From assembly GCA_015064395.1 (NCBI GenBank), contig SVSH01000009.1, forward strand, positions 1 through 64,000: a DNA stretch of 64,000 bases, given 5' to 3'. This document shows, piece by piece, positions 2,352 to 64,000 of the stretch (within the stretch, counting starts at the first letter, position 1; every line of letters starts with the position of its first letter). A program made the position numbers and the translations under genes. Below the pieces are notes generated by a model, which did not search any database, was not told where the DNA came from, and saw only the letters and a list, made by a program, of their open reading frames with translations. The DNA is from Oscillospiraceae bacterium (GTDB lineage: Bacteria > Bacillota > Clostridia > Oscillospirales > CAG-272).

Positions 2352-2886
2352 ATTTAAGGTTCTAACAGCTTCTCCTTTTGACGCGCACACAGCTGCGCGC
2401 GTGCGCTGTACCGGTTTTTGATGCCACTTCTTGGGGCGCGCCAAGAAGTGGCCAAGAAACGCGCCCAGGCGTTCCCCCTGGGAACCCCCGGCATTGCCGC
2501 TCTGCAAAGAGAAAGACGAGATAGACATATATTTTGCCTGTGCGGTGCTCCAAATTTTGTCACCACGAGCGGCAGGCGGAAAAAACAAAAAAATTTTGCA
2601 ATCTCCACAGGGGCGTTCTTCGAACGCCCGCGGGCGAACGCAGTTCGCCCCTACAGGCAAATCTAATATAGTGGAGCGAATGGGGTGGGGCCCTCTCCGT
2701 CGGCTTCGCCGACACCTCTCCCAGCGGGAGAGGCTTTCGTGGAGCAGATGTGCCCCACAACACAATTCTAATATCGTAGAGAAGAAGGGGTAGGGGCCCC
2801 ACTTCTTGCGGGAGCCGATTTCGCCTGCGGCGAAATCACTATGAAATAGCGGAGTTCTTCCCCATACAGGGCTAGAAGAAGTTGTC
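2352..2886. repeat. Mosaic hairpin element copy R1
   Basis: Member of the window-wide inverted-repeat family. It starts with the end motif CTTCTCCTTTTGACGCGC and continues through the B hairpin CCACTTCTTGG/CCAAGAAGTGG followed by CCAAGAAA. Next is module C (CCGCTCT at 2498 to GAGCGGCA near 2574), a G+C palindrome pair (2609-2655) and a CCCTCTCCGTCGG/GGGAGAGGC REP-like unit (2690-2732). The right end is AGAAGAAGTTG. It fills the whole gap between the 1103-2320 gene and the gyrA 3' hairpin. Small ORFs inside it are repeat translations, not genes. Confidence 0.85.
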
Positions 2887-5548: not shown

Positions 5549-6119
5549 TAAATTTCAAGCTACTTTTTCTACAGCCTCGCCCAGCTTCGCGCGCTCGGTA
5601 TGCTGTATGAATGTTCATTCTTTGCCGCGCGGCAAAGAACGAACCAAGAAAACGCGCCCGGACGTTCCCTCCGGGGCCTCCCTTTCCGTGCCGCTCTACA
5701 AAGAGAAAAACGTGAGGTCACATATATGCTTTTTTGCTGTGCCTCAACTTTAGTCAACACGCGCGGCAGGTGTTGAAAAAATTTTTTTACTCTCCGTAGG
5801 GGCGTTCAAAGAACGCCCGCGGGCGAACAAAGTTCGCCCCTACGGGGAACACAAGGGCTTTTGCCCTTAAATGAGTGCGGCTTTTTTTGAAGCCGTGCTC
5901 GCAAACGCTGAAGATGCAACCCTTTGCGCCACAATCAGGTGAAATTCATTTCACCGTGGCGCACTGCGGGGTTCTAAGGGGCTTGCCCCTTAGTCCTCTT
6001 TCTTGGTTCGTTCTTTCTCGGACGAGAAAGAATGAACACCAATGCCGCACAGCGCGGCGCGCAGCTCGACGAAGTCGAGGTGGGCTGTACGCGCGTTTGT
6101 AGGAGAAACAGTGGAAAAT
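5549..6119. repeat. Mosaic hairpin element copy R2
   Basis: Full-length copy. The left end TAAATTTCAAGCTAC leads to the B hairpin (GTTCATTCTTTGCC/GGCAAAGAACGAAC, then CAAGAAA), module C and a palindrome pair GGGGCGTTC/GAACGCCC plus GGGCGAAC/GTTCGCCC (5798-5841). It continues with a GCGCCACAATC/CGTGGCGC stem, AAGGGGCTT/CCCCTTAG, an inverted B hairpin, and a right end with CTCGACGAAGTCGAG and TAGGAGAA. It abuts the mreD stop codon at 6120 and ends about 45 bp before the gyrA start. Confidence 0.85.
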
Positions 6120-7510: not shown

Positions 7511-7918
7511 TATCTAAACTTTTAACAGCTTCTTCTACGGACGCGCATACAGCTTCGCGCCGTGCTGTGCCGGTTTGATTGTTCATTCTTTCTCATCCGA
7601 GAAAGAACGAACCAAGAAAGCGGACCCGGGCGTTCCCCCTGGGAACCCCCGGCATTGCCGCTCTGCAAAGCATAAGACGAGATAGACATATGTTTTGTCT
7701 GTGCGGTGCTCCCAATTTTGTCAACACGCGCGGCAGGCGGAAAAAGCAAGAAATTTTTGCAATCTCCACAGGGGCGTTCTTCGAACGCCCGCGGGCGAAC
7801 ACAGTTCGCCCCTACAGGCAAATCTAACATTGTGGAGCGAATGGGTGGGGCCCCATGAGCTCGCGGCAGTACCTATGGAATAGCGGAGTTCTTTCCCTTA
7901 CAGGGCTAGAAGAAGTCG
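7511..7918. repeat. Mosaic hairpin element copy R3
   Basis: Left end TCTAAACTTTTAACAGCTTC, B hairpin GTTCATTCTTTCTC/GAGAAAGAACGAAC, module C, palindrome pair (7771-7815) and an H module (TGTGGAGCGAATGGG) that ends CTAGAAGAAGTC. Bases 7791-7815 are the exact reverse complement of a 25-nt palindromic stretch inside the RAYT coding sequence near 58.93 kb. The element fills the mreC-gyrB interval. Confidence 0.85.
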
Positions 7919-57409: not shown

Positions 57410-58699
57410 ATGAACGTAGTAAAAAAGCTAACCCTTTGGCTGTTGATCGCCACCCTTGTTTTGACCGCTCTGTCGGCCTGCACGCCCTCGGACATCGGTG
57501 GGCAGACACCGCCCGATACAAACGATACTTCTACGCCCCCGGCGCTCGACGAGGTCATCCCCGAGTCGCTGACCATTTCCATTGCCAAGGTGCTGCTTAT
57601 GGTGGGCGAGACGGTCGATCTGGATTACGATTCGACTCCTGCCGGCCGTGTGAGCGTCACTTACGAGGCCGCTGAGGGTGCGTCGCACGTGAGCATCGAG
57701 GGCGATCGTATCACGGCCCTCTCGCCCGGAACCATCACGCTGATCGGTCACGCGGGCGAGGTTAAAAGCCAGGAGCTGATCATCTCGGTCATTCAAGACG
57801 CCGACCCCTACGTCGGTATGACGGCCGAGCAGTTTTATGCCAATTATACCCCCGCTGTCAGCTATCTGGACGCCAGCTACCGCACCCAGCACGGCTTTAT
57901 GTCGGGAGAATTGACCGTTCCCGACCAAGCGCCTACGGTCTCGAGCTATCAGCCCAAGCGGGACGATATGCTCATCCGCAACGCCAATACGTATTATTCG
58001 GATAACAATAACACCTACACGATAGTGGATGCCTACGGCCGCGAGGTCATGGAGATCTACCGCGGTGCGGCCTATATCACGCTTGAGGAGGTCGCGGCCT
58101 ACGTTTATGCCTTCGGCCACATTCCCGCCAACTACATCGGCGGCAAGAATGCCTCGCCCTCAAGCAGCGTTTGGGGCGAATATCTGCGACTCAATCACTC
58201 TCAATTTTCGGGAAGCACCACCAAATACCCCTATGAGCCCGCTCTTCCCGACATCAGCGGATGTGGGGGAGATCTGCAATACTACGAGATCGACATCGGT
58301 ACGACGGGAACGGACTGCGATCCCGGTTACGTTATCCGAACATACAACGACGGCAACCGCATCACCCGCGGTGCTGCCCGCATCGTCTACGCCCGCTTTG
58401 ACAAGAATGGCGACAACATCATCGACCCCAATGAGAAGTACGTCTTTTATACCTACAATCATTACAACGATTTTCAGGAATATCTGAACTACTACGGCGG
58501 CTGGGGCGAGATGTTCGGCAACGTCACGGGCGGCGGCGTCCTTTCGGACAAGAAAAACTGCAACCCCACCCCCTACGTTCCCGTCTGGCGGGGCAACCTT
58601 GGGGCGAACATGGGTAACGCCGCGGCGGCAGATAGCACATATGAAGTCATTGTCGCTTTTCTCACTCCCGCCGCCTGGCCGGGACGCAGGTATGCGTAA
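57410..58699 (+). CDS. Lipoprotein with Ig-like domain and barnase-family RNase domain carrying an EF-hand loop
   Basis: A 429-residue lipoprotein (lipobox LSAC, Cys24). Residues about 50-128 form a Big2-like Ig domain (LTISIAKVLLMVGETVDLD). Residues about 215-365 align with barnase: VAAYVYAFGHIPANYI with barnase VADYLQTYHKLPDNYI, CGGDL with IGGDI, YYEIDI with WREADI, RIVYAR with RILYSS, YTYNHYNDF with YKTTDHYQTF. The catalytic Glu73, Arg83, Arg87 and His102 correspond to Glu293, Arg320, Arg324 and His351. A canonical EF-hand loop DKNGDNIIDPNE (331-342) is inserted before the His strand. Predicted: calcium-stabilised extracellular RNase. It has its own promoter, and the last 25 or so residues look atypical. 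Confidence 0.87.
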   Translation: MNVVKKLTLWLLIATLVLTALSACTPSDIGGQTPPDTNDTSTPPALDEVIPESLTISIAKVLLMVGETVDLDYDSTPAGRVSVTYEAAEGASHVSIEGDRITALSPGTITLIGHAGEVKSQELIISVIQDADPYVGMTAEQFYANYTPAVSYLDASYRTQHGFMSGELTVPDQAPTVSSYQPKRDDMLIRNANTYYSDNNNTYTIVDAYGREVMEIYRGAAYITLEEVAAYVYAFGHIPANYIGGKNASPSSSVWGEYLRLNHSQFSGSTTKYPYEPALPDISGCGGDLQYYEIDIGTTGTDCDPGYVIRTYNDGNRITRGAARIVYARFDKNGDNIIDPNEKYVFYTYNHYNDFQEYLNYYGGWGEMFGNVTGGGVLSDKKNCNPTPYVPVWRGNLGANMGNAAAADSTYEVIVAFLTPAAWPGRRYA

Positions 58700-58717
58700 G
58701 CACCTACAAGCAAATAT

Positions 58718-58753
58718 CGGCAGAGAGGTTGTCTTGCCGATTTGTGGTATAAT
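58718..58753 (+). promoter_or_regulatory. Leader cassette B, promoter-like hairpin region before RAYT
   Basis: CGGCA/TGCCG stem and ATTTGTGGTATAATGGGA match the cassette A leader at 44481-44525, but a 4-nt deletion leaves only 13 bp between TTGTCT and TATAAT, so the promoter may be weakened. The -10 overlaps the RAYT start codon region. Confidence 0.55.
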
Positions 58754-59303
58754 GGGAAGGGTGATAAAGATAGATAACAAAAAGGATTTGCCGAAAAGAA
58801 AAGATAACCGGCTCAAGAATTATGATTACAGTTCTCCCGGTGCATATTTTGTAACCATCTGTACGGAAAACAGAAGGAATTACTTTTGGAACGGATCGGT
58901 TGACCCACAGGTATTCAATTGGCGTTACGTAGGGGCGAACTGTGTTCGCCCGCAAAAACTGCCATTATCCAATATCGGCAAGATCGTGTTAGACGAGCTG
59001 GAACGATGGAATCAAACGTATCCTTCGGTATCATTGTATTCTTATGTGATTATGCCAAATCACCTACATATAATGGTTGTTATTTCCGCCGATGAATACG
59101 GGCGACCACAGGTCGCCCCTACGGTGGAACGGATGGTAAAACAATTCAAAGGCGCGGCTACAAAAAAGATTGGTGTATCTATTTGGCAAAAATCCTATAT
59201 TGAACACGTGATACGGAATAAAAAGGATTACGAAACCCGATCGAATTATATTTACGAAAATCCTATTCGTTGGTACTACGACGAATTATACACGGATGAA
59301 TAG
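58752..59303 (+). CDS. REP-associated tyrosine transposase (RAYT, IS200-like Y1 family)
   Basis: Chosen start is the ATG at 58752 (183 residues); a longer frame from 58599 overlaps the upstream gene and is less likely. An alternative start nearby cannot be excluded because no good RBS precedes 58752. Family features: NYDYSSPGAYFVTICTENRR, the HUH motif MPNHLHIMVVI and the C-terminal WQKSYIEHVIRNKKDYE with YIYENPIRW. Two REP-like palindromes (58933-58951 and 59101-59119) lie in frame, encoding VGANCVRP and GRPQVAPTV. RAYTs process single-stranded REP hairpins. AT-rich relative to upstream genes. Confidence 0.9.
   Translation: MGRVIKIDNKKDLPKRKDNRLKNYDYSSPGAYFVTICTENRRNYFWNGSVDPQVFNWRYVGANCVRPQKLPLSNIGKIVLDELERWNQTYPSVSLYSYVIMPNHLHIMVVISADEYGRPQVAPTVERMVKQFKGAATKKIGVSIWQKSYIEHVIRNKKDYETRSNYIYENPIRWYYDELYTDE
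58933..58951. repeat. REP-like palindrome inside RAYT (copy 1)
   Basis: GGGCGAA-CTGTG-TTCGCCC. With flanks this matches, over 25 nt and reverse-complemented, bases 7791-7815 of element R3. Confidence 0.9.
59101..59119. repeat. REP-like palindrome inside RAYT (copy 2)
   Basis: GGGCGACC-ACA-GGTCGCCC followed by CTACGG, like the ends of the R1-R3 palindromes. Confidence 0.85.
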
Positions 59304-59390
59304 GGGTGCAGGCGTTGCCCCGAACCTGCGTTGCTTGCAATGCTGCAGCGGAAATAGAAAAACGGCGATAAAAGCGAAGGAGATGTTTCA
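59304..59390 (+). repeat. Shared trailing leader motif before the GNAT gene
   Basis: GGGGTGCAGGCGTTGCCC, GCGTTGCTTGCAATGCTG and ACGGCGATAAA resemble 44661-44735 (GGGGTATGGGCTTTGCCC, GCGTTGCAAGCAACGCTG, CTGGCGATAAA). In both places it sits directly before an RBS and a low-GC gene. Confidence 0.65.
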
Positions 59391-59867
59391 ATGATTGAAT
59401 ATGAAATATGCCCTATGACTACAGATGCCGAGATGGATGAAAAAGGATATGTTCATTGGAAATCTTGGCAGGAAACGTATACCGGCCTTATGCCGGATGA
59501 TTATTTGAAAAACATAACCTTGGAAAAATGTATCAAAATGGCGCACAAATGGCCGCAAAATACTTTTTTACTCAAAGTCGATGATAAAACTGTTGGATTT
59601 TCTTGCATGGGAAAAAGTGCTGATGCGGAAGGCGCAAATGAGGTTATTGCTATATATCTCTTAAAGGAATATCACAGCAAAGGGCTGGGATATGCGTTGT
59701 TAAATCAAACCGTTTCGCGGTTTGCAAAAAGCGAAAAAATCGTGTTATGGGTTCTTGAAGGCAATGAAAAAGCAATCAACTTTTACAAGAAATTTGGATT
59801 TGATTTTAATGGCAATCGAAAACCGCTTCCATTTGGTGTAGAATTACAAATGGAATTGAAGCCATAA
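59391..59867 (+). CDS. GNAT-family N-acetyltransferase
   Basis: A 158-residue acetyltransferase. The acetyl-CoA-binding motif A is IAIYLLKEYHSKGLGYALLNQTV (Q/RxxGxG/A-like KGLGYA). Further landmarks are YTGLMPDDYL in the N-terminal helix region and NEKAINFYKKFGFDF in motif B. The acceptor substrate is unknown. RBS AAGGAG is well placed. AT-rich, and followed by the HAD gene after 28 bp; probably a two-gene unit carried with RAYT. Confidence 0.9.
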   Translation: MIEYEICPMTTDAEMDEKGYVHWKSWQETYTGLMPDDYLKNITLEKCIKMAHKWPQNTFLLKVDDKTVGFSCMGKSADAEGANEVIAIYLLKEYHSKGLGYALLNQTVSRFAKSEKIVLWVLEGNEKAINFYKKFGFDFNGNRKPLPFGVELQMELKP

Positions 59868-59895
59868 GTCAAACGGAACCAGGAGAATGGGAATT

Positions 59896-60522
59896 ATGCC
59901 CGAAAAGAAAACAACTTTAATTATCGATATGTACGGGGTCATTTTGAAAGAACGGAAAGGAAACTTTGTTCCCTATACGTATGAACACTTCGACGCATCG
60001 GAACACGAAAGAATAAAGAATTTATTTGAACACGAAAAGCTGTTCACAAAAGCAGGTTTGGGTGATATTAGTTCGCATTTGTTTCTTTCTGAGTTGGGGT
60101 ATGAAGACACTGAATACCATATGAAAAACTATATTGAAAACTATCTTTCTTTTGATAAAACATTTGTTTCGTTTGCGGAAAAATACCATAACCGTTATAC
60201 ATTTGTTTTATTATCTACCGACGTCTCGGAATGGAGCAAGTACATTACAAAACACTATGGCATTGATCAATATTTCAAGTATAGAATAATTAGCGGAGAT
60301 GTACATTGCAGAAAGCCTGACCCTAAAATTTACAACATTACGCTAGAGCAGACGCAAACAAAAGCAAGCGAGTGCCTTTTTGTTGATGATAATGTGGACA
60401 ATATTTTGGCAGCCCAAAAGCTTGGGATCCGTTCTATTCTTTTTAACAGATACAATGAGCAATATTCGGGAGAGCAAGTTCATTCGTTTGAAGAATTGGA
60501 TCAAATCCTCCAAGTCTTTTAA
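59896..60522 (+). CDS. HAD-superfamily hydrolase
   Basis: The start at 59896 gives the best RBS spacing (AGGAG at 59881-59885); the upstream ATG at 59887 is too close to it. 208 residues. HAD motif I is altered: LIIDMYGVIL (expected DxDGT/V; here Asp then Met-Tyr-Gly). Motif II is VLLSTDVSEW, and motifs III/IV are RKPDPKIY and CLFVDDNVDNILAAQKLG. It resembles haloacid dehalogenase-like/epoxide-hydrolase-N type phosphatases. Asp in motif I is present; the second acidic residue is replaced by Tyr, so phosphatase activity is uncertain. AT-rich. Confidence 0.85.
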   Translation: MPEKKTTLIIDMYGVILKERKGNFVPYTYEHFDASEHERIKNLFEHEKLFTKAGLGDISSHLFLSELGYEDTEYHMKNYIENYLSFDKTFVSFAEKYHNRYTFVLLSTDVSEWSKYITKHYGIDQYFKYRIISGDVHCRKPDPKIYNITLEQTQTKASECLFVDDNVDNILAAQKLGIRSILFNRYNEQYSGEQVHSFEELDQILQVF

Positions 60523-60531
60523 TATCAATAA

Positions 60532-60570
60532 CCCCCAACAGATTTTCAAAAAATGTTGGGGGCTATTTGA
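60532..60570. terminator. Bidirectional terminator between HAD and PTS genes
   Basis: CCCCCAACA/TGTTGGGGG stem with T-rich sequence on the plus side, between convergent genes. Confidence 0.85.
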
Positions 60571-60589
60571 TTTTATAGCGTTTTTTCTC

Positions 60590-62236
60590 TTACACCGTCT
60601 TGATGAAATCCTCCAACTCGCTCTTAATCACCGACACCTGTGGGCCGTAGACGACCTGCACGCCGCCGCCCTTGCGGATCACACCCGCCGCGCCGCTTTC
60701 CTTGAGGCGGGCGTCCGAAACAAGAGAGGCATCCTTGACGCTGACGCGGAGTCGTGTCGCACAGCAATCAAGCCCTGCGATGTTATCCTTGCCGCCAAGA
60801 CCCTCCAAAATCAGGCGGGAGACGTGATGCTCGTCCTTGGCCGTCGTGTCCGAGGTGGACTTGCCGGCCTTTTTGTCGTTATAGTCCGCGCGAGTGTAAA
60901 GGCGGGTCTCCTCGCCCTCTGCTTCGCGCCCCGGCGTGGCATAACCCCGACGGCGAATGAGGAAGCGGAACAGCAGAAAATAAACGATGAAATAAAACAC
61001 GCCAACGACGGGGATCATCACCCAGTTGGTCTTGTCGTTGCCCTGCAGGACGCCAAAGAGGAGCAGGTCGATGATACCGCCTGAGAAGGTCATGCCCACA
61101 CCCACGCCGAGCAGATGCATGAGCATATACGCAAGCCCTGCAAAGACCGAGTGAATGACGTACAGAACGGGGGCGACGAACAAAAAGGTGAATTCGATGG
61201 GCTCGGTGATGCCCGTCAGCATACTGGTCAGTGCCGCCGAGAGAAGAAGTCCGCCGGCTGTCTTTTTACGATCGTCGCGGGCACAGGAGTACATAGCCAG
61301 CGCCGCGCCGGGAAGCCCAAAGATCATCAAGGGGAATTTACCGCTCATAAAGCGGCAGGCCTCGACGGAAAAACGGGTGGTTGCGGGGGAGGCCAGCTCG
61401 GCAAAGAAAATGTTTTGCGCGCCGTAGATCATCGTCCCGTCGATCATGGCAGAGCCACCCACGCCCGTCTGCCAGAAGGGCAGATAGAACACGTGGTGCA
61501 GCCCGAAGGGAATGAGAATGCGCTCGATAAAGCCGTAGATGAGCGTCCCCGCGTAGCCCGAGCGGAGCACGAGATCGCCCAGCGCAAAGATGCCCGTCTG
61601 AATATAGGGCCAGACGAAAAACATGACGGCGCCGACCAGAATATAAGCGGTGGTAGAAATGATGGGAATGAAGCGGCTGCCGCCAAAGAAGGAAATGACC
61701 TGCGGCAGGCGGATCTTATAAAACCGATTGGTGAGCGCCGCGACGCCAAGACCGACGATGATGCCGCCGAACACGCCCATCTGAAGCGACTCGATGCCGA
61801 CGACGTTTGCGATCGTTCCCTCCTGCATGACCCCCGGCTCCAGCCTGCCCGTCAGGGACAAGAGAGAATGGATGGTGGTATGCATGACGAAAAAGGCAAT
61901 GGCGGCTGACAGCGTGGCAGTCGCCTTTTCGTTCTCCGCCATGCCCAGCGCCACGCCCATGGCAAAGATGAGGGGCAGATTGTCAAAAATGACCGATCCG
62001 ACTGCCGAGAGCAGCGAGAAAATAGCGAAGGGCACCGTTCCCGGGCCCATGACTCCCAAAAGGCCGTATTCGGCCAGCATGGTGGCGTTGGTCAGCGAGG
62101 ACCCGATGCCCAAAAGAAGCCCCGCGATGGGTAACAGGGCAATGGGCAACATAAAGGCGCGTCCGACGCGCTGAAGCAGGCTGAAAAAGCCGCCGCCCCC
62201 TCCTCGTTGAAGATCGTCTGTCTTGACACTCGTCAT
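60590..62236 (-). CDS. PTS transporter EIICB, glucose/N-acetylglucosamine family
   Basis: Start at the ATG at 62236 (RBS GGAAAGGAA), 548 residues. The EIIC domain (about 1-420) has FMLPIALLPIAGLLLGIGSS, DNLPLIFAMGVALGMA, IPFGLHHVFYLPFW and TGITEPIEFTFLFVAP, all typical of the Glc/GlcNAc family. The EIIB domain (about 470-548) has the phosphorylated Cys in NIAGLDCCATRLRVSV. No EIIA domain is fused, so it must use an EIIA from elsewhere. It imports and phosphorylates a hexose or amino sugar. Divergent from the solute-binding lipoprotein gene. Confidence 0.93.
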   Translation of the reverse strand: MTSVKTDDLQRGGGGGFFSLLQRVGRAFMLPIALLPIAGLLLGIGSSLTNATMLAEYGLLGVMGPGTVPFAIFSLLSAVGSVIFDNLPLIFAMGVALGMAENEKATATLSAAIAFFVMHTTIHSLLSLTGRLEPGVMQEGTIANVVGIESLQMGVFGGIIVGLGVAALTNRFYKIRLPQVISFFGGSRFIPIISTTAYILVGAVMFFVWPYIQTGIFALGDLVLRSGYAGTLIYGFIERILIPFGLHHVFYLPFWQTGVGGSAMIDGTMIYGAQNIFFAELASPATTRFSVEACRFMSGKFPLMIFGLPGAALAMYSCARDDRKKTAGGLLLSAALTSMLTGITEPIEFTFLFVAPVLYVIHSVFAGLAYMLMHLLGVGVGMTFSGGIIDLLLFGVLQGNDKTNWVMIPVVGVFYFIVYFLLFRFLIRRRGYATPGREAEGEETRLYTRADYNDKKAGKSTSDTTAKDEHHVSRLILEGLGGKDNIAGLDCCATRLRVSVKDASLVSDARLKESGAAGVIRKGGGVQVVYGPQVSVIKSELEDFIKTV

Positions 62237-62319
62237 AACTCTGTTTCCTTTCCCGTTTGACCTTGCGGTGTTTTTGCTACTATTTTTCACGTGCGGGGTG
62301 GGTTTTATACAGAAATTTC

Positions 62320-62349
62320 TTGACAATCCTCTTTCACCCATGGTAAAAT
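62320..62349 (+). promoter_or_regulatory. Promoter of the 62385 lipoprotein gene
   Basis: TTGACA (62320-62325) and TAAAAT (62344-62349), 18-bp spacer, about 35 nt before the start. Confidence 0.8.
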
Positions 62350-62384
62350 ATATCAGTTACGTTGCACAGAAAGGAATTACGGTC

Positions 62385-63848
62385 ATGAAAAGAACAACAA
62401 AAGTAGCAGTTTTGCTGTTGTTGGCAGTCCTGTTTTGCTTGCAGCTGCTCGCCTGCAAGCAGCCGGAGACGCCCGGGGGAGAGGTTCCCCCGAGTATCAA
62501 TCCTCCTTCGGAGAGAGTAGAGCCGGACATCGAGAAAAAAGACTACAACGGCACGTTTAGCGTATTGCACTATACAACGACCAACCACGAATGGACCAAC
62601 CCCTGGGACGAGATCGTTCCTGCCTCGGGCATGGAGACCCGCCCCGGTGATCTGATCGGCAACGATATTTTTGAACGTGCCGCTTGGTTGGAGCAGGAGT
62701 ATGGCATCACCGTGACCAACGAGTACATCGAGTACACCAAGCTGCCGACCACGATGTCGACGATCAAGACCTCCGGCGGCACCGAGTATCAGCTGCTGGC
62801 CACCATGGGACGCAGTGCGCAGGTCCTGATGGGCAAGGGATATTTCTTCAATATGGCAGAGATCCCGGGCATCAATTTTGAAAATCCCTGGTGGAACGAC
62901 AGTGCCCTGGAGGCACTCAGCCTTGGCGACTACGTCGAGTTTGCCGTTTCGGATATGCTGCTCATCGACAAGAGCGCGACTATGGCGATGTACTATAATA
63001 TTCCCATGGCCAACGACTTGCAGCTTGACGGCTTTTACGACGCCGTTCGCGACTACGAGTGGACGATCGAGCGCCTGGCGGAATATGCCGAGGTCGGTCT
63101 TCAGCCCGATGGTGATGACGACTGGGACATGGACGACGTTTACGGCATCGTCGCCAACGACGACCCGGTTCATGCTCTTTACATAGGCTCGGGCAACCGC
63201 TTCATGGAAAAGGATGAGAATGGAAATTACTATTACAGCTACGGCACGGGCGACACGATGCTGGTCATGACCGATCTTTTGACGGATATTATGTACGCTG
63301 ATTTCTACTGGAACAGCTACGTCCACGCCGAAAGCCCCGATTTTGCAAGCGGAGGCTCGCTGTTTACCTTTGATAAGGTCAAGAGATGCATGAAGCTGCG
63401 TGAAATGCAGGATGACTACGGCGTGCTTCCCATTCCCATGTACAGCGAGGATCAGAAGCAGTATTACAGCCTGGTCTCCAACTACCACGACAGTATGTTT
63501 GCGGTGATCAACACCAACGTCAACAGCAAAGAGCTCATCGGCGCGGCGCTGGAGCTGATGGGATACTACTCCTACTATGAGATCTACAACGATTTTTATG
63601 ACGTTGTCATTCAGAACAGAGGCACGCGTGACGAGGAATCCAAGCGGATGCTGCAGTTGATCTTTGAGACCCGTACGTATGATATGGGACTTGTTTACGA
63701 TCCGTACGGCAACACGGCGAATGTCATTCGCATCACGGGAACACAATCCAGTGACGTAGCATCGCAATGGTCGGAGATGCAATCGAAGCGAGAGGATACC
63801 GAAAGAGAGCTTGAGGAATTGATCAAGCAGTTCAACGGGAATAGCTAA
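62385..63848 (+). CDS. Extracellular solute-binding lipoprotein, orphan
   Basis: Start at the ATG at 62385 after AAGGAAT, 487 residues. Signal peptide (TKVAVLLLLAVLFCLQLLAC) with lipobox LLAC, then a proline-rich linker. ABC binding-protein features are seen (GNDIFERAAWLEQEYGITV, LIDKSATMAMYYNIPMAND, WTIERLAEYAEVGLQPDG, GVLPIPMYSEDQKQYYSLVS), close to family 1 sugar-binding proteins. No permease or ATPase genes follow before the terminator, so it may share a transporter encoded elsewhere. The ligand is unknown. Confidence 0.88.
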   Translation: MKRTTKVAVLLLLAVLFCLQLLACKQPETPGGEVPPSINPPSERVEPDIEKKDYNGTFSVLHYTTTNHEWTNPWDEIVPASGMETRPGDLIGNDIFERAAWLEQEYGITVTNEYIEYTKLPTTMSTIKTSGGTEYQLLATMGRSAQVLMGKGYFFNMAEIPGINFENPWWNDSALEALSLGDYVEFAVSDMLLIDKSATMAMYYNIPMANDLQLDGFYDAVRDYEWTIERLAEYAEVGLQPDGDDDWDMDDVYGIVANDDPVHALYIGSGNRFMEKDENGNYYYSYGTGDTMLVMTDLLTDIMYADFYWNSYVHAESPDFASGGSLFTFDKVKRCMKLREMQDDYGVLPIPMYSEDQKQYYSLVSNYHDSMFAVINTNVNSKELIGAALELMGYYSYYEIYNDFYDVVIQNRGTRDEESKRMLQLIFETRTYDMGLVYDPYGNTANVIRITGTQSSDVASQWSEMQSKREDTERELEELIKQFNGNS

Positions 63849-63861
63849 TGTAAGATAGAAA

Positions 63862-63907
63862 AACATCCATCCTTTGCAACAGAGGCAGAGGGTGGATGTT
63901 TTTTTCT
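63862..63907 (+). terminator. Terminator of the 62385 lipoprotein gene
   Basis: AACATCCA/TGGATGTT stem followed by TTTTTTCTTT, 14 nt after the stop. Confidence 0.85.
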
Positions 63908-63915
63908 TTGGAAGG

Positions 63916-64000
63916 CTAAATTTTAAGCAACCACTTCTACGGACGCGCATACTGCTTCGCGCTGCGCTGTGCCGGTTTTCGTTGTCACTTCTTGGCGCGT
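63916..64000. repeat. Mosaic hairpin element copy R15 (cut by window edge)
   Basis: End motif TAAATTTTAAGCAACCACTTC, A module GCATACTGCTTCGCGCTGCG, and the first arm of a B hairpin (TCACTTCTTGGCGCG). Confidence 0.8.

Follow-up and report, generated by a model that had tools for sequence, protein, structure and literature searches.

An Oscillospiraceae RAYT gene with an inverted pair of REP palindromes in its reading frame

The RAYT/REPtron systems (TnpA_REP) of E. coli (yafM) and Stenotrophomonas (Sm) combine an HUH-Tyr protein of the 4er8 fold with REPs that consist of a GTAG tag and a hairpin. In REP_Sm, a perfect 8-bp palindrome with a 3-nt loop follows directly after GTAG (PMC8266576), and RAYT ORFs are described, in the text cited here, as always flanked by two inverted REPs (PMC2817692). 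RAYT genes are also stated not to copy themselves (PMC8049555, part cited here). Two inverted REPs with outward tags that are able to pair make up a REPIN (Bertels and Rainey 2011, PMC3116915), a dispersed and extragenic element of many copies. According to the passages of the same work cited here, nothing of the left end remains after the excision of REPINs in Pseudomonas fluorescens, whereas the final bases of the right end stay behind. REPs and Rickettsia palindromic elements occur in frame within protein genes, and RAYT-like genes between terminal inverted repeats (TIRs) are described as TIRtrons or TIRYTs (PMC3733652). Many genes with internal REPs and also TIR-flanked RAYT-like genes are listed in that work, where sections 15 and 16 do not name RAYTs among the former.

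Here, we analysed a gene in a 64,000-nt stretch of a contig from an Oscillospiraceae bacterium, and this whole stretch is called the window. The gene shares with the classical systems the HUH-Tyr protein, the fold and REPs that are built like REP_Sm. In the classical REPtron the inverted REPs flank the ORF, whereas in the window gene they lie inside the ORF and are translated. The pair is arranged like a REPIN, inverted, with the tags outward and able to pair, but it encloses a 148-nt coding spacer and was found as part of RAYT genes; in the window genome, such a REP-to-REP unit with a coding spacer occurred only within the two RAYT genes. As with the intragenic REPs and the Rickettsia elements (PMC3733652), the palindromes are read in frame. 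Unlike these, they are a pair with fixed positions within the gene whose product is the presumed cognate transposase, and this pair is conserved and covaries across an order. In the open-licence literature no report of REPs inside RAYT genes was found, and we filed the in-gene REP pair as a variant of RAYT/REPIN that is new to the part of this literature that was searched.

The gene, its product and the two internal palindromes

The features of the gene are as follows.

58712 to 59320, + strand: stretch over which homologous RAYT loci are alike, with otherwise unrelated surroundings (blastn against oriented loci)
58716 to 58741, + strand: left-end hairpin ATCGGCA..TGCCGAT, just 5' of the promoter-like box and kept in relatives
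58752 to 59303, + strand: RAYT gene, 183 aa counted from the ATG at 58752
58929 to 58951, + strand: internal REP 1, GTAG + GGGCGAAC/TGT/GTTCGCCC, coding for VGANCVRP (from sequence)
58952 to 59099, + strand: 148-nt coding spacer between the inverted REPs, which encodes the HUH motif (from sequence)
59100 to 59122, - strand: internal REP 2, GTAG + GGGCGACC/TGT/GGTCGCCC, with the sense strand coding for GRPQVAPT (from sequence)

By its sequence and structure model, the product of 58752-59303 is a predicted RAYT, with an HUH motif and a tyrosine in a Y1 fold and with a host genome that has GTAG-tagged REPs. The HUH motif is H104-L-H106 and the predicted catalytic residue is Tyr166; in an alignment of 48 rows, H104 and H106 were invariant and Y166 nearly invariant. 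The NCBIfam profile NF047646 (REP_Tyr_transpos) matched the protein with 63 bits (E 2.8e-17), which is below its curated cut-off of 80 bits, and the match to Pfam Y1_Tnp was sub-threshold. The sole sequence match in the PDB was 4er8, a RAYT bound to a REP hairpin, and Y166 was aligned with position 115 of its chain, which we take to be the catalytic Tyr. A structure model (mean pLDDT 81.6) was built from 48 proteins of the window and the loci. When it was searched with Foldseek, the top match was again 4er8 (E 3.8e-7), followed by IS200/IS605-type transposases. An earlier note on this DNA, made from the letters alone, had named the gene a RAYT, and this is borne out by the NF047646 profile and by 4er8 in sequence and fold. 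A TATAAT box at 58748-58753 overlaps the first ATG; the in-frame GTG at 58761 is for this reason the likelier start, which would make the gene near-leaderless.

Both internal REPs are complete, with a GTAG tag, a perfect 8-bp stem and a 3-nt loop. In REP 1, the tag at 58929-58932 stands directly before the hairpin at 58933-58951 on the + strand. In REP 2, the hairpin at 59100-59118 is followed by the tag at 59119-59122, which reads CTAC on the + strand and GTAG on the - strand. The two REPs are inverted with their tags outward and differ in 3 bases over 25, so that the sites are not identical in the window clade (GAAC-TGT-GTTC at site 1 vs GACC-TGT-GGTC at site 2). They encode residues 60-67 (VGANCVRP) and 117-124 (GRPQVAPT), in agreement with the earlier note, which had both palindromes in frame and coding for these peptides; it had found the second palindrome correctly but placed it at 59101-59119, one base off. 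In the structure model, residues 60-67 lie in a strand turn and residues 117-124 in a loop. The second RAYT of the genome (C34, 93% identical) also carries both sites, with one mismatch in the stem of its site 1.

The pair among homologues

RAYTs of this kind were found in 88 of 394 genomes of the order at E <=1e-8, and 45 loci were taken from named genome contigs, nearly all of them Clostridia MAGs. Throughout this order of Clostridia, RAYTs with as little as about 40% identity had the REP pair at the same two loops. Of 69 aligned loci, 58 had a GTAG-tagged hairpin at site 1, likewise 58 at site 2, and 54 had one at both; the set leaves out ORFs of up to 100 aa and further loci of a gene already included (L006, L013-L016), and it contains at least five genes twice, from two collections (L033/L064, L034/L071, L035/L087, L036/L076, L037/L085). 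The 69 homologous genes contained 915 GTAG-like tags; an adjacent stem was found for 129 of these, and 116 of the 129 were sites 1 and 2, with 58 each. GTAG was kept at nearly every site with a hairpin.

The peptides varied among the relatives because the REP stems vary: VGANCVRP, VGARIARP, VGADSIRP and VGEGLAPP were found at site 1, and GRPQVAPT, GRAMRAPT, GRIISAPT and GGASPSPT at site 2. In L041, L051 and L061 the stem is longer and contains a conserved G-A mismatch with compensatory changes around it. The earlier note had considered the REPs as recent insertions, which does not hold: most of the relatives fetched from the order have the pair in these two positions too, and its sequences differ among them with compensatory changes. 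The refuting case that the note had named, residues kept with unrelated codons, was not seen; in the homologues the residues vary while the hairpin symmetry is retained. Some RAYTs do not have the pair (L045, L050 and L138), and the pair is therefore not required; L138 has one weak A+T-rich hairpin inside the gene, away from sites 1 and 2.

Across the phylum, NF047646 matched in 127 of 398 genomes. No internal pair was found in the 30 loci fetched from this search (L107-L136), and the top three, L107-L109, had REP arrays on both sides of the gene, which is the textbook arrangement. The profile of the clade itself matched in 27 of 398 genomes. Among the 28 loci fetched from the latter search, L140 carried both sites as in the window clade, and some clade-profile loci had REPs only outside the gene, e.g. 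L145 and L149. Single REPs inside the gene were observed in L139 and L142 and a double palindrome in L152, and a looser scan found a dissimilar pair in L153.

For the covariation alignments, only 8+3+8 hairpins with GTAG were used, with one row for each distinct sequence, so GTAG and the length were constant by choice. The 18 distinct hairpins of site 1 were paired in 99.3% of the cells, with a covariation of 0.561 compared to 0.202 in the shuffled alignments (0 of 500). The 19 distinct hairpins of site 2 were paired in 100%, with 0.569 compared to 0.170 (0 of 500). With slid partners, the covariation of both sites was at most 0.172. The count of pair types was within the shuffles and was reached by 246 and 298 of 500, as expected because only a few columns vary. 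On a tree built without the REP columns, in which many inner branches are weakly supported and which leaves out the rearranged L089, L091, L093 and L103, the distant L106 and most of the near-identical V1 genes (11 kept), the hairpin type changed a minimum of 23 times at site 1 and 25 times at site 2, and the presence of the pair at least 8 times.

The two sites were then compared with each other. In diverged genes (<60% identity) with both sites, the hairpins were identical in 15 of 20, with a mean of 1.58 and a maximum of 7 in 10000 shuffles. When distinct site pairs were counted once, 12 of 23 were identical (shuffled mean 0.64, maximum 5 in 20000) and 11 of 23 were not, the window clade being among the latter. 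The sites are read from opposite strands, so that the same repeat is translated into a different peptide at each, and this identity cannot be explained by selection at the protein level. In L177, tandem REP expansions with the same linker were found at both sites, three units at site 1 and two at site 2. Substitution under selection would not yield them, and they therefore point to DNA copying between the sites.

The tandem internal REP copies of L177 and L178 are in frame, and the copy in L178 is at site 2. The possibility that RAYTs swap the part from REP to REP like a cassette was also considered and set aside: the middle was less conserved than the ends in most relatives, which faster change fits equally.

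Dispersed REPs, natural deletions and mobility

The region 58929-58953 on the + strand is identical over 25 nt to 7791-7815 on the - strand, as the earlier note had stated, and has one mismatch each to 2630-2654 (-) and 5819-5843 (-). In 100 dinucleotide shuffles of the window, no 25-nt match was found. The REPs of this family that lie outside the gene in the window are the following.

2632 to 2654, - strand: intergenic REP of this family, with one differing loop base (sequence match)
5796 to 5843, no strand assigned: intergenic inverted REP doublet, tags outward, 2-nt spacer (sequence match)
7793 to 7815, - strand: intergenic REP identical to internal REP 1 (sequence match)

No further REPs of this family were found at 7815-58929 or 59122-64000 of the window, so the gene is not flanked by REPs in the manner of a classical REPtron. 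In the 1.89-Mb genome, internal REP 1 had 36 matches at up to 3 mismatches compared to 0 for the reversed control, and 12 perfect 24-mers, REP 1 itself included, were among the matches listed. The link that the earlier note drew between the RAYT and the intergenic palindromes stands, the internal and the intergenic REPs being of the same family. Many REPs of the window genome stood in inverted doublets, whose two members were 2 or 25-27 nt apart and commonly had different stems. In G104 and in the window genome, the dispersed doublets were often heterotypic, with a recurring pairing of two stem types that were not always of the RAYT-internal type.

With the internal copies included in all counts, the V1 REP had 29 matches in G000 and 24 in G090, the V2 REP had 88, 35, 24 and 16 in its four carrier genomes and the V8 REP had 19 in G295. 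None of the three types was found in the 8 RAYT-less genomes of the family (0/8 for each). V1 REPs were also present in G357, G242 and G152, whose fetched RAYT is of another type. The internal stem was also dispersed in 8 of 12 carrier genomes (G005, G147, G169, G210, G295, G237, G043 and G303), a tally read from degenerate-pattern matches that were listed for some genomes only in part, and resting partly on the V1, V2 and V8 searches. G005, G147, G169 and G210 have the V2 type, G043 has the same stem with another loop base and G303 has few copies. Among the matches listed, no dispersed copies of the internal type were found beyond the gene in G104, G167 (for that gene), G246 and G230. In G246, the REP type was found only inside the RAYT gene, and the internal pair can therefore persist without dispersed copies of its type. 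Among genomes of the same family, a looser REP pattern matched in 17 of 21 with a RAYT match vs 4 of 20 without (Fisher p 1.4e-4), internal copies being counted among the positives.

Three natural deletions all end at the foot of the site-2 hairpin. In L103, the whole REP-to-REP segment is gone; the GTAG on the left is lost, whereas the CTAC on the right remains, at least in its TAC; a CC microhomology leaves the exact base of the junction open. This footprint is asymmetric, like that of REPIN excision in the account cited above (PMC3116915). The junction could thus reflect REPIN-type excision, and replication slippage fits it too. In L093, only the site-2 hairpin is deleted (20 nt), which breaks the frame and keeps the CTAC tag. 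In L172, REP 1 and the site-2 CTAC are kept and the part between them is gone.

L089 and L091, from the same MAG, contain a chimaeric tandem RAYT, in which the V1 pair is preceded by another internal REP pair that differs from it. In L091 the segment between these upstream REPs is gone, while L089 still has it, and the end points of this deletion differ from those of the hairpin-foot deletions. REP sites as breakpoints of truncated RAYT copies were rejected, several of the partial matches lying at contig ends (e.g. G185, G131).

The DNA similarity among the V1 loci ends near 58712 and 59320. In many related loci, the motif TTCTTA[AG]CGGAGAAAT is found about 70 bp before the RAYT gene and an inverted copy 166-1136 bp after it, with one variable gene or none between the RAYT gene and the right copy. 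Both repeats were present in 11 loci (L032, L035, L036, L062, L063, L065, L068, L070, L072, L077 and L091) and one repeat in further loci. Ten proteins were checked against Pfam, eight cargo proteins and the products of the window GNAT and HAD genes; the eight were four GNATs, an HD/YfbR-like hydrolase, a methyltransferase, a weak AAA match and DUF7660. The cargo of the TIR loci includes a kinase-like protein, and an XRE-like regulator was seen by eye in L032. The outer flanks of the 11 two-repeat loci were locus-specific inverted arms with A-runs, and in 8 of 11 the own pairing ranked first, in a ranking that leaves out two duplicate loci. The TIR elements sit as if they were inserted into rho-independent terminator hairpins. 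A RAYT-like gene between terminal inverted repeats is also the plan of the TIRtron/TIRYT (PMC3733652, part cited here); unlike it, the related loci have internal REPs and one variable cargo gene.

No terminal inverted repeat was found at the window copy. Two genes that follow it are possible cargo, the first by analogy with the related loci.

59391 to 59867, + strand: GNAT acetyltransferase (Pfam)
59887 to 60522, + strand: HAD-family hydrolase (Pfam)

After these two genes, a terminator-like hairpin is located at 60532-60562. In L168 (G790, same genus), a homologue of the window gene 57410-58699 is followed by what looks like the right-hand portion of a same-family element that lies in reverse orientation, an arrangement that suggests an insertion hot spot.

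Interpretation of the in-gene pair

From the comparison of the sequences, the window gene is probably a RAYT with its own cognate REP pair in frame, an in-gene REPIN that would be kept matched by DNA copying and by recognition as ssDNA. When the gene is single-stranded at the replication fork, the RAYT product would bind and nick the internal REPs as it would the genomic ones. The two sites may then be kept alike by strand exchange or gene conversion, both with each other and with the genomic REPs. The gene would in this way carry the substrate that its protein recognises, and the substrate would travel when the gene moves. An occasional excision of the segment would remove the HUH-coding part and kill the gene.

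It is possible, though rather doubtful, that the REPs are a passive decoration that became inserted in an ancestral RAYT at two loops tolerant of insertions, was inherited and was homogenised by ordinary gene conversion, without a benefit and without RAYT action. In-frame REPs are known in other genes (PMC3733652, part cited here), the sites are loops in the structure model, REPs at these loops also occur in the sister lineages L142, L152 and L153, and L045, L050 and L046 lack REPs or have lost them. However, two inverted sites with outward tags have remained palindromic through the minimum of 23 and 25 changes given above, and GTAG, which a passive hairpin does not need, is kept with nearly every hairpin.

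The in-gene pair is unlikely to be the founder of the dispersed REPs, a reading that may hold alongside the in-gene REPIN. It would fit with G246, where the REP type is confined to the gene, with a pair that travels with a mobile gene and with the expansion of in-gene REPs in L177 and L178. Against it, many dispersed doublets are heterotypic, one of their two stems being absent from the gene, and L107-L109, the classical RAYTs of the same phylum, have their REPs outside the gene. Because these are the nearest classical relatives, their arrangement favours an origin from outside to inside.

A control at the mRNA level, where hairpins of the transcript act in pausing, stability or autoregulation by the protein, appears improbable. 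Both sites form hairpins in either strand, and REPs are known as possible RNA elements (PMC3733652, part cited here). At the third stem pair, however, G-T wobbles were found in 6 of 18 distinct hairpins of site 1 and in 6 of 19 of site 2; on the tag strand, the 5' arm always had the G and the 3' arm the T. The tag strand of site 2 is the template strand and not the mRNA, which would carry A-C mismatches at the wobbles. Since the site-2 wobbles sit on the non-mRNA strand, the sequences speak for a constraint on the REP as ssDNA, or for descent from REPs under it, rather than for an mRNA hairpin. A conserved protein motif, e.g. a REP-binding loop, with incidental palindromes is hardly credible: VGAxxxRP and GRxxxAPT are common among the relatives, but the stems show compensatory changes at both sites, one repeat is coded from both strands into two unrelated peptides and relatives without these peptides retain the catalytic region.

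For the in-gene REPIN, a wider reading can be put forward tentatively, although we regard it as doubtful as a whole. The gene may target itself, the RAYT acting on the embedded REPIN, which would stay matched by copying and seed new REP populations on moving, with the excision of the HUH part as an off-switch. Unlike domesticated RAYTs, it would travel in inverted-repeat elements that insert in terminators with one exchangeable cargo gene.

The finding touches two open questions, the origin of new REP types and the means by which a RAYT remains matched to its REPs. Since a sample of the presumed substrate lies within each gene itself, enzyme-repeat pairs for testing in vitro can be listed from sequence alone. 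The pair is also a clear case of a constraint at the DNA level through a coding region, in which one repeat, read from both strands, yields two peptides that change together.
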